NCBI RefSeq assembly: GCF_900111805.1 | Contig: NZ_FOJN01000011.1 | Coordinates: forward strand, 62,001 to 126,000 | Direction of reading: 5' to 3' | DNA from: Rhodococcoides kroppenstedtii | GTDB lineage: Bacteria > Actinomycetota > Actinomycetes > Mycobacteriales > Mycobacteriaceae | Length of the DNA stretch: 64,000 nucleotides | Shown: in pieces, positions 37,837 to 40,501 of the stretch | Position numbering within the stretch: the first letter of the stretch is position 1 | Layout: the number at the start of each line of letters is the position of its first letter | Position numbers and translations under genes: made by a program | Notes under the pieces: model-generated | Told to the model about the DNA's origin: nothing | Seen by the model: only the letters and a program-made list of their open reading frames with translations | The model's database searches: none

Positions 37837-38466
37837 ATGACGTACGCACTGCAGGCGTCGCTGTTCGACGACGCCGCCGCGGGCCCGTCGCTCGCGGCCC
37901 TCGCCGGCGCCCGGCGCACGCACCTCGGCGACGGCGCCTGGATCGACCTGCTCCCCGGGTGGATGAGCGGGTCCGACGCGGTGTTCGACGCACTGGTGGC
38001 CGACGTGCCGTGGCGCACGGAGCGACGGCCGATGTACGACCGGGTGGTGGACGTGCCGCGGCTCGTCTCGTTCTTCCCCGACCCGGACCGGCTTCCCCAC
38101 CCCGCGCTGACGGACGCACGCGCGGCCCTCGACCGGCACTACCGTGCCGAACTCGGGGAGGACTTCGCGACGGCGGGACTGTGCTTCTACCGCGACGGCC
38201 GGGACAGCGTGGCCTGGCACGGTGACGACGTCGGCCGCGGCGCGACCGAGGACACGATGGTGGCGATCCTCTCGCTCGGCGCGGCGCGATCCCTGCTGCT
38301 GCGACCGCGCGGCGGCGGGCCGTCCCGGCGGGCCACGCTGGGCCACGGCGACCTGGTGGTGATGGGCGGCTCCTGCCAACGCACGTGGGAGCACTGCATC
38401 CCCAAGTCCACCAGGCCCACCGGCCCGCGGATCAGCGTGCAGTTCCGTCCGCACGGCGTGCGCTGA
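37837..38466 (+). CDS. alkB: AlkB-type 2OG-Fe(II) DNA dioxygenase
   Basis: A 209-aa alpha-ketoglutarate-dependent dioxygenase that removes alkyl groups from DNA or RNA bases. The iron ligands are H and D in WHGDDVG (about residues 128-134) and the H of RTWEHCIPK (about 184-192); the 2OG-binding Arg is in GPRISVQFRPH. It starts leaderless 7 nt after TATCAT, with a LexA-type SOS box over the promoter. The 3' end overlaps the convergent DAHP synthase gene by 35 bp. Substrate range (DNA versus tRNA) is unknown. Confidence 0.88.
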   Translation: MTYALQASLFDDAAAGPSLAALAGARRTHLGDGAWIDLLPGWMSGSDAVFDALVADVPWRTERRPMYDRVVDVPRLVSFFPDPDRLPHPALTDARAALDRHYRAELGEDFATAGLCFYRDGRDSVAWHGDDVGRGATEDTMVAILSLGAARSLLLRPRGGGPSRRATLGHGDLVVMGGSCQRTWEHCIPKSTRPTGPRISVQFRPHGVR

Positions 38467-39505
38467 CGGCATCCGCCAGCATCCGCAACGCGTCCTCGGT
38501 GGCCGCCCAGCCGAGGCAGGCGTCCGTGATCGACTGTCCGCGAACGAGAGTCGACACGTCCGCGGCCAGGTCCTGACGGCCCTCGACCAGGAAACTCTCG
38601 ATCATGACCCCCGCGACGAAGCGATCGCCGGCAGCGAGACGACGCGCGACGTCGCCGAGCACGTCCGTCTGGCGGCGGTGGTCCTTGGCACTGTTGCCGT
38701 GACTGGCGTCGATCACCACGCGCGGACGGCGTCCTGCGGACATGAGCCTGCGGGCGGCGTCGTCGACCGAGGCGGCGTCGTAGTTCGGGCCGGAGGCACC
38801 GCCGCGCAGGATCACGTGGGCGTCGTCGTTGCCCTCCGTCGCGACGACGGCGAGTCGGCCGTCGTCGTCGACGCCCGGATGGACGTGCGGAGCCGCCGCC
38901 GACCGGACGCCGTCGACGGCCACCTGGACGTCGCCGTCGGTGGCGTTCTTGATTCCGACGGGGAGAGGGAGCCCGCTCACCATCTGGCGATGAATCTGAC
39001 TCGCCGCGGTGCGGGCACCGATCGCGCCGTAGGCCACGAGGTCGGCCAGGTGCGGGGCGAGTGTCGGGTCGAGGAACTCGGTGGCCACCGGCAGTCCTCG
39101 CTCGACCACGTCGGCGAACACCCCACGGGCCGTGGCCAATCCGGCCCCGAGATCGTGCGATCCGTCGAGGCGAGGATCGGACAGCAGACCCTTCCAGCCC
39201 ACCGTGGTGCGAGGTTTCTCGACATAGACGCGCATCGCGACCACCAGCCGGTCGCCGAGCGTCGTCGCGATCGGCGCGAGGCGGTCGGCGTATTCGAGGG
39301 CGGCGGGGACGTCGTGCACGGAGCACGGACCGACCACGACCGCGAGGCGGTCGTCGTCCCCGCGCAGGGTCCGACGCAGGGCGGATCGTGAGTCGTCGAC
39401 CCGGGCGGCCGCGGCCGCCGACAGCGGGACGGCACGACGCAGGTCGCGCGGAGAGGGCAAGGGCACGGCGGCCAGGCGCGGAGCCTGGTCGAGCAGAACG
39501 GTCAC
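38432..39505 (-). CDS. 3-deoxy-7-phosphoheptulonate (DAHP) synthase, type I
   Basis: A 357-aa AroF/AroG/AroH-type enzyme condensing PEP and erythrose 4-phosphate, the first step of aromatic amino-acid synthesis. Motifs: VVVGPCSVHD (about residues 58-67), RVYVEKPRTTVGWKGL, ARTAASQIHRQMVSGLPLPVG and VIDASHGNSAKDH (His, metal). The GTG at 39505 has GAGGA 7 nt upstream and removes a 14-residue extension with no ribosome site. Upstream is a 22-codon leader peptide with Tyr-Phe-Trp-Phe and alternative hairpins, so expression is probably controlled by aromatic amino-acid supply. Many actinobacteria have a separate type II enzyme as well. Confidence 0.92.
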   Translation of the reverse strand: MTVLLDQAPRLAAVPLPSPRDLRRAVPLSAAAAARVDDSRSALRRTLRGDDDRLAVVVGPCSVHDVPAALEYADRLAPIATTLGDRLVVAMRVYVEKPRTTVGWKGLLSDPRLDGSHDLGAGLATARGVFADVVERGLPVATEFLDPTLAPHLADLVAYGAIGARTAASQIHRQMVSGLPLPVGIKNATDGDVQVAVDGVRSAAAPHVHPGVDDDGRLAVVATEGNDDAHVILRGGASGPNYDAASVDDAARRLMSAGRRPRVVIDASHGNSAKDHRRQTDVLGDVARRLAAGDRFVAGVMIESFLVEGRQDLAADVSTLVRGQSITDACLGWAATEDALRMLADAVSARRADGTAR

Positions 39506-39535
39506 GGTGGAATCCTCAGGGAAAGGACCGGACAC

Positions 39536-39580
39536 GAACCGGATCACACACGCCGAGCGCGAGCCGGTTCAGCCGGCTCG
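39536..39580 (-). promoter_or_regulatory. Candidate attenuator: mutually exclusive hairpins
   Basis: In the RNA (minus strand) segment A CGAGCCGG (39580-39573) pairs with segment B CCGGCTCG (39567-39560), loop CUGAA. Segment B', GAACCGG (39570-39564), instead pairs perfectly with segment C CCGGTTC (39542-39536). A-B and B'-C cannot coexist. They lie between the leader-peptide stop and the DAHP synthase ribosome site. Neither stem has a U-run, so control may be Rho-type or translational. Confidence 0.6.
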
Positions 39581-39595
39581 TCGGGTGGGAAGGGG

Positions 39596-39664
39596 TCAGC
39601 GCAGCAGTTCGCCGACCGTGCCCCCGAGGGCCGGCCTGTCGAACCAAAAATATGCGCGCTGCAC
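39596..39664 (-). CDS. Aromatic leader peptide (Tyr-Phe-Trp-Phe)
   Basis: A 22-codon ORF with GTG start and TGA stop, encoding VQRAYFWFDRP...ELLR. Four consecutive aromatic codons (TAT TTT TGG TTC) sit at codons 5-8; TAT and TTT are rare in a genome of this GC content. A TACTGT -10 (39677-39672, minus) ends 7 nt before the GTG, so the leader would be translated from a leaderless mRNA. The ORF ends 90 nt before the DAHP synthase start, with alternative hairpins between. Too short for ordinary gene finders; role as a ribosome-stalling sensor is inferred. Confidence 0.75.
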   Translation of the reverse strand: MQRAYFWFDRPALGGTVGELLR

Positions 39665-39706
39665 GGAAGGGACAGTACACGACGGGCCGCGTGGGAGGAT
39701 CGGTCG

Positions 39707-40501
39707 ATGACGGCCTCGGGCACCTCCTCGCTTTCCCGCATGCAACGCAGCACGGCGTTCGAGCGCGCGGCCCGCGCCGGTCACGCCGTGAGCGGCGTCC
39801 TTCATCTGCTCATCGGGTGGATCACGATCCGCCTGGCGTTCGGACAGGGTGGCAACGCCGACCAGTCCGGGGCGTTGGCGGAGCTCGCGTCGAAACCCGG
39901 TGGGCGGGTGGCCCTCTGGGTTGCCGTCGTCGCCTTCGTGGCGTTGGCGCTGTGGCGCGTGACCGAGGCGGTGGTCGGCAAGAAGCGCGAATCGGGGTCG
40001 GACACGGGCGATCGCCTGAAGGCGGCGGCACTGGCCGTCGTCTACCTGGCGTTCGCGTGGTCCGCGTTCGGGTTCGCGCGCGGATCGGGTCGATCGAGCG
40101 GGGAACAGAACGCGGGCATCACAGCTCGCCTGATGCAGTCGACCCCCGGCAAGGGCGTCCTGCTGATCGCCGCCGCCGTGATCGTGGGGGTGGGCGTCTA
40201 CCACGTCTACAAGGGGGTCTCGACGAATTTCCGGGACGACCTCGACGGGTCCGTCGGGCGCGGCGTGACGTGGCTCGGCATCGCCGGATACACCGCGAAG
40301 GGGATCGCCCTCGCCGGGGCCGGTCTGCTGGTCGCCGTCTCGGTCTTCACCGCGGATCCGAGCAAGGCCACCGGCCTCGACGGCGCGGTGAAGACTCTCG
40401 GCGCGCAGCCCTACGGACAGGTGCTCCTGGTGCTCGCCGGACTCGGCATCGGCTTGTACGGGATCTACGCCTTCGTGCTCGCGCGGCGCGCCACGATGTG
40501 A
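39707..40501 (+). CDS. DUF1206 membrane protein
   Basis: A 264-aa membrane protein with six helices in three DUF1206 repeats: AARAGHAVSGVLHLLIGWIT...VAFVALALWRVTEA, DRLKAAALAVVYLAFAWSAF...GVGVYHVYKG and TWLGIAGYTAKGIALAGAGL...GIGLYGIYAFV. Each repeat pairs an Ala/Arg-Gly-Tyr/His helix start with a later Tyr-rich helix. GGGAGG precedes the ATG. It is divergent from the aromatic leader/DAHP synthase unit across about 42 bp. Function unknown. Confidence 0.85.
   Translation: MTASGTSSLSRMQRSTAFERAARAGHAVSGVLHLLIGWITIRLAFGQGGNADQSGALAELASKPGGRVALWVAVVAFVALALWRVTEAVVGKKRESGSDTGDRLKAAALAVVYLAFAWSAFGFARGSGRSSGEQNAGITARLMQSTPGKGVLLIAAAVIVGVGVYHVYKGVSTNFRDDLDGSVGRGVTWLGIAGYTAKGIALAGAGLLVAVSVFTADPSKATGLDGAVKTLGAQPYGQVLLVLAGLGIGLYGIYAFVLARRATM

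Follow-up and report, generated by a model that had tools for sequence, protein, structure and literature searches.

A probable aroR-type attenuator with a mixed aromatic, putatively leaderless leader peptide upstream of the DAHP synthase gene aroF of Rhodococcoides kroppenstedtii

Results

We analyzed a 64,000-nt stretch of the Rhodococcoides kroppenstedtii genome (contig NZ_FOJN01000011.1; hereafter the window, from whose first letter all coordinates are counted) and found that its gene for a type I DAHP synthase, aroF (38432..39505, minus strand, GTG start at 39505; TIGR00034, PF00793), is preceded by what is very probably an aroR-type ribosome-mediated attenuator. Its leader peptide is mixed aromatic and probably leaderless, and aroF would be switched on by aromatic shortage. 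Direct support comes from the conservation of the element, its single strong copy, its leaderless geometry, its mutually exclusive helices, and covariation at those positions that vary. The reaction catalyzed by the aroF enzyme commits the cell to aromatic synthesis, and this pathway is in industrial use in actinobacteria. The second DAHP synthase in the genome is a type II enzyme (PF01474), and inspection by eye of the region upstream of its gene revealed no leader.

Direct reading placed the leader ORF, the −10 box, the aromatic run, segments A, B, and C, and the GAGGA motif exactly where the original prediction had them. The leader ORF (VQRAYFWFDRPALGGTVGELLR, 39596..39664, minus strand) runs for 22 codons from a GTG at 39664 to a TGA at 39598-39596, a length that depends on the choice of start because the frame remains open as far as 40561 in the upstream direction, running antisense to a DUF1206 gene. 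Its peptide begins VQRAYFWF, and the putative sensor codons TAT TTT TGG TTC (Tyr-Phe-Trp-Phe) lie at 39641..39652 (minus strand). The −10 box, TACTGT (39672..39677, minus strand), is 7 nt upstream of the GTG, a spacing that would place the transcript start at or adjoining this codon and make the ORF leaderless. Within the window this was the sole short ORF with four consecutive aromatic codons, whether or not a −10 box was required, and 40 copies of the window simulated by a first-order Markov model contained none. Furthermore, a covariance model of the leader matched one place in the genome strongly, namely aroF (E = 7.8e-22); its six other matches there were all weak (E 0.3-5), the best of them having an E value of 0.32. 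The divergent DUF1206 gene (39707-40501) starts 43 nt from the leader start, and the two promoters are therefore close or shared. The end of the leader ORF and its stop codon (39617-39594) form a hairpin of their own in the predicted fold (GGUCGGCG with CGCUGACC), which may be the reason for the constant CGC-TGA end among relatives.

The RNA between the leader and aroF, where 90 nt separate the leader stop from the aroF start, holds segment A (CGAGCCGG, 39573..39580), segment B (GAACCGGCTCG, 39560..39570), segment C (CCGGTTC, 39536..39542), and the aroF Shine-Dalgarno (SD) sequence GAGGA (39513..39517), all on the minus strand. B can be the partner of A or of C; its core, CCGGCTCG, occupies 39567-39560 and its GAACCGG stretch 39570-39564 (minus strand). 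The claim that A:B and B:C are alternative, exclusive pairings stood. The B:C hairpin (39536..39570, minus strand) is longer than had been described: a scan returned arms at 39570-39557 and 39549-39536 around a 7-nt loop, and of the 14 positions spanned by these arms, 13 are paired and one is a mismatch in our own reading. Mutually exclusive RNA helices, as in the classical transcription attenuator, are found here. A T run was absent after both A:B and B:C in the window, so that neither hairpin qualifies as an intrinsic terminator; the lack of a U-tract after A:B had been correctly observed at the outset. The initial list of elements missed segment 1 (CCGGCCCTCGGGGG, 39621..39634, minus strand), which lies inside the ORF directly 3′ of the aromatic codons and is able to pair with A. 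The 1:A helix is present in the predicted fold of the window RNA without a ribosome. A is both the 3′ half of 1:A and the 5′ arm of A:B and therefore fits two partners, and B likewise fits two. A search of Rfam 15 with window positions 39300-39900 returned two matches, both far under the gathering score, and six loci searched against the Rfam 15 families gave no match at the gathering score.

Next, we looked into how widely the element occurs. The closest named genome found was that of Rhodococcoides corynebacterioides (92% AroF identity). Type I AroF was present in 37/37 genomes of the genus, 109/131 of the family, 52/121 of the order, and 47/216 of the class. An element-like leader lay upstream of aroF at 30/30 loci of the same genus (window included; the best 30 of 37 places), at 76/80 loci of the family and order (hand-picked across genera), and at 11/20 loci of the class (20 of the 47 genomes), under a lenient rule that accepted any in-frame start with a TANNNT box 5 to 9 nt upstream. 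One further locus (L173) carries an aromatic leader though the rule missed it. Leaders were found under eight family labels (f1, f3, f4, f14, f15, f17, f22, and f98). The nine class loci whose aroF has no leader (L208, L210, L211, L216-L218, and L220-L222) all bear the label f96 and are every f96 locus read. Two other aroF genes without a leader (L133 and L185) are each the second copy in their genome, and a third (L184) is a single copy. Among 51 named loci, at least 18 had a leader of such kind, all of them Actinobacteria by title, blanks at minus-strand whole-genome loci being uninformative; no leader of such kind was seen upstream of aroF in Nonomuraea (L014) or Nocardia sp. AG03 (L019).

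The peptides fall into the types QR.YFWF..PA.GG (that of the window), AYWRF.xAPGG, RWYAYFxLALE, and a few more, and Trp, Tyr, and Phe were all present in 109/117 leaders, counted over the first 16 residues and so beyond the aromatic run alone. In agreement with the leaderless start originally proposed, a TANNNT box stood 5 to 9 nt before an in-frame start in 117/117 leaders, and an SD-like 4-mer preceded the leader start in 1/117. Other start triplets had a TANNNT box at 6 to 8 nt in 7/1701 cases (116 upstream regions); a separate −10 count gave 112/116, with a start choice that favored starts with a −10 box. A search for the YFWF pattern found it in 91/251 family genomes and 10/31 genera, and its reversed-pattern control gave none among the family-genome matches listed. 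With strict filters, leader model R1 met the leader in 4/296 phylum genomes, a figure for the YFWF type alone, from whose sequences the model was built, which says nothing on the spread of other leader types. One leader-model match, in genome G064 (L202, E = 0.0015), was rejected as a GC-rich hairpin with no aromatic leader; a further match was L203 (E = 0.004). Two genomes of one genus (g3) have WRFYF leaders with the 1:3 pairing described below. Outside Actinobacteria, short aromatic-rich ORFs precede aroF in a Planctomycetota MAG (L042, RFYAYFSYPW) and an Armatimonadetes MAG (L025, CFWFDRLW); these may be either separate leaders or chance.

We then evaluated the helices by covariation, using 60 of the 86 distinct YFWF-type sequences (alignment A1; near-identical ones and L165 were left out, and L174 had been dropped before). 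In A1, six of the seven A:B pairs are invariant, and because it is almost invariant A:B has no covariation of its own. For B:C, 86.5% of cells were paired and two-sided changes numbered 21, where shuffled alignments gave 10.0 ± 2.2 (0/500; the shuffles here and below treat related sequences as independent and ignore kinship), and its covariation score was 0.142 against 0.112 (0/500). It also topped its slid controls. Overall, B:C went beyond the shuffles on three of five covariation measures; neither the count of pairs that changed on both sides nor that of pair types exceeded them (223/500 and 214/500). One of the 11 B:C pairs was unpaired in 42/59 sequences, and the helix was weaker in a close relative (L054, best 7/11 ungapped); in such per-relative counts, C was chosen as the best complement to B, which biases them toward pairing. 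The aromatic run was conserved across genera, and the lack of conservation in close relatives that would have spoken against the original prediction was not observed. A 1:C helix, which looked strong both on inspection and in the folds of some relatives, was rejected as the main switch (87.1% paired, two-sided changes 7 against 6.6 shuffled, 261/500). A consensus fold of A1 by RNAalifold was discarded (0/24 pairs with two-sided changes).

For the other clades we used 52 of 55 sequences (alignment A3; L188-L190 left out), in which four rows misaligned at segment 3 (L116, L118, L169, and L191) were counted unchanged. Here the part of the ORF directly 3′ of the aromatic codons pairs with the RNA preceding a terminator-like hairpin. 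This 1:3 helix, the homolog of 1:A, was paired in 93.7% of cells, with 27 two-sided changes against 6.3 ± 2.1 shuffled (0/500, kinship ignored), and its pairing is kept while the encoded residues vary (APGG, APDG, LALE, and LALK). The terminator-like hairpin itself had 61 two-sided changes against 18.6 ± 3.2 (0/500, kinship ignored), and short T runs often lie 3′ of it at many YWRF-type loci. A point against the proposed switch is that in the YWRF-type clades this hairpin and the 11-pair 1:3 helix do not overlap. Within YFWF-type genera, A:B is followed by seven T in L141, and by eye a hairpin is followed by six T in L165.

The synonymous codons of the leaders are the reverse of those of aroF. 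Over all Tyr and Phe codons of 85 distinct leaders, from all clades, Tyr was encoded by TAT 86 times and by TAC 7 times, and Phe by TTT 99 times and by TTC 37 times. In aroF of 38 loci, 30 of them of the same genus and some almost identical, the counts were TAT 3 and TAC 205, and TTT 0 and TTC 184. Slow wobble decoding is one explanation that would account for the U-ending leader codons; the need for an AU-rich, open 5′ end would be another. This reversed choice would connect wobble decoding with starvation sensitivity in a way that can be tested.

Finally, we folded the RNAs with the ribosome footprint as a constraint, using sets of 70, 68, 58, and 56 sequences per test, after removal of duplicates and of any sequence in which the exact core of A or B was missing, C could not be located, or the SD was not called. 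For RNA ending at B, moving the ribosome from the stop back to the first aromatic codon lowered A:B by more than 0.1 in 37/56 sequences and raised it in 0/56. Stalls at the third and fourth aromatic codons gave mean A:B values of 0.94 and 0.99, against 0.94 at the stop, and with a footprint 3 nt longer, a stall at the second codon already gave 0.94, against 0.88 at the stop. The window's own A:B value at the stop rose from 0.01 to 1.0 with the footprint 3 nt longer. As for the output, forcing B:C opened the aroF SD in 33/58 sequences and closed it in 4/58 (mean openness 0.32 to 0.39); in the window it did not open (0.16 to 0.17). When the ribosome sat on the first aromatic codon, the SD was open to 0.40 on average, and to 0.32 when it sat on the stop. 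Masking of the SD by C was considered and set aside as weak: over 53 sequences, the longest complement was 4.06, and 3.6 after shuffling. The modeled folds point one way for early aromatic codons and the other way for late ones, and the evidence on polarity is mixed. The original interpretation was supported in part, by the conserved run, the leaderless geometry, and the exclusive helices; the folds do not give one outcome for stalls at all aromatic codons.

Discussion

From these features we infer ribosome stalling, a direction of switching, an output step, and the sensing of all three amino acids, as follows. Transcription would begin at or beside the GTG, and ribosomes would bind without a leader and translate UAU-UUU-UGG-UUC. 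A shortage of aromatic aminoacyl-tRNA would stall them at these codons and leave segment 1 free for A; B would then be released for C, and aroF would be expressed. With ample charging, the ribosome would reach the stop just 5′ of A and break 1:A, and A:B would form as the OFF hairpin. The exclusive states would be 1:A together with B:C on one side and A:B on the other. In some relatives the putative OFF hairpin, with its U-tract, has the look of an intrinsic terminator; no such tract is present in the window, whose output may therefore be translational or go through another termination route. For polarity taken alone, we lean moderately toward A:B as the OFF state.

The same attenuator could also work with opposite polarity, by the classical four-segment logic: a late stall, at Trp or the second Phe, would cover segment 1, A:B would be permissive, and B:C would be repressive beside the aroF ribosome site. 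The high A:B values predicted for stalls at the third and fourth aromatic codons agree with this, as does the position of B:C just 5′ of the SD, but the U-tract stands on A:B in L141, the hairpin at the same place is terminator-like in other clades, and the SD tends to open rather than close under forced B:C. We therefore give this version a lesser share of the confidence placed in the attenuator and hold it to be rather unlikely. More doubtful still is a refinement in which the response depends on which codon of the run stalls the ribosome: early stalls (Tyr, first Phe) and late stalls (Trp, second Phe) would free different segments and set different aroF outputs, so that the run would report which aromatic is short, and output in the lineage of the window would be translational, the terminator of other clades having been lost.

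Two further readings seem to us highly improbable, the second a shade more so. The conserved peptide might itself arrest the ribosome as a nascent-peptide sensor, of which TnaC is an example, with the RNA pairings secondary. The PA.GG residues that follow the aromatic run are indeed conserved as well, but the nucleotides encoding them form the ORF strand of the 1:A/1:3 helix, and other clades change the residues while two-sided changes keep the RNA pairing. Otherwise the leader ORF might merely feed ribosomes to aroF by reinitiation or coupling, or the region might be a protein-binding RNA element, with no amino acid sensing. The A:B sequence is almost invariant, as for a binding site, but such invariance is equally expected if A and B each need two partners, and the distance from leader stop to aroF start in the window also argues against this explanation. 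Moreover, conserved aromatic codons of unusual synonymous choice, together with aroF as the target, point to aromatic sensing.

If the proposed attenuator is borne out, the regulation of aroF by uncharged aromatic tRNA would be widespread in actinobacteria rather than a speciality of Corynebacterium glutamicum, and Trp would belong to the leader in most members read. The natural series of long, short, and no U-tracts would then serve to test how a switch based on termination gives way to a different output.

Among known systems, the trp and pheA attenuators of Escherichia coli resemble our proposal in that the position of the ribosome on sensor codons selects between exclusive hairpins. The E. 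coli leaders differ from that of the window in being SD-led ORFs, in sensing one amino acid each, and in having a U-tract terminator. Both attenuators are named in the part of PMC11802643 available to us. Leaderless polycysteine ORFs of mycobacteria were reportedly described by Canestrari et al. in 2020. These are leaderless regulatory ORFs with sensor codons, as the leader ORF of the window is proposed to be, but the amino acid is cysteine and the operons are others. Cysteine-rich leader candidates of mycobacteria also appear in the accessible part of PMC4633059.

Within Actinobacteria, the LEU element before leuA, as presented in the portions of Seliverstov et al. 2005 available to us (PMC1262725), resembles the window in having a leader ORF with a codon run and alternative RNA structures that reach the SD of the structural gene. 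It differs in having a pseudoknot and a pairing of the codon run with the SD, and its gene is leuA rather than aroF. The same portions of that survey (PMC1262725) report no conserved RNA structure at the phenylalanine and tyrosine operons of Actinobacteria. Pairing of the sensor codons with the SD, as in the LEU element, was absent in both sequences whose folds we examined.

The nearest relative is the AroR leader peptide and aroF attenuator of C. glutamicum, reportedly described by Neshat et al. in 2014. Judged by the excerpts at hand of three papers that cite it (PMC7356990, PMC11802643, and PMC11525245), AroR has a Phe-Tyr-Phe motif and a Phe-responsive attenuation of aroF. A review among these three adds, in the section available, that aroF transcription rises under Phe limitation and that Tyr availability has no effect. 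The output of AroR differs between papers in the passages at hand, being either a translational regulatory leader acting via Phe and Tyr or a transcription that is attenuated with Phe present, and the visible parts of two RNA-seq papers (PMC4046766 and PMC3890552) report a leader at C. glutamicum aroF. On these partial sources, in which AroR has been in print since 2014, the original statement that such a sensor was undescribed was too strong; in the open-licence literature, as far as its texts were accessible, we found no description of a mixed Trp-containing aroF leader outside Corynebacterium. Set against AroR by its description only, the window differs in lacking a U-tract 3′ of A:B and in having the B:C alternative near the SD. 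Unlike the Phe-Tyr-Phe motif of C. glutamicum known from papers, which is a species feature rather than part of a definition, the motif of the window is Tyr-Phe-Trp-Phe. In both, a short aromatic-rich leader ORF lies directly 5′ of the DAHP synthase gene aroF, and attenuation by AroR is ribosome mediated, as is proposed here. The kind of switch is already known, and its widespread, mixed, Trp-containing version is much less so.
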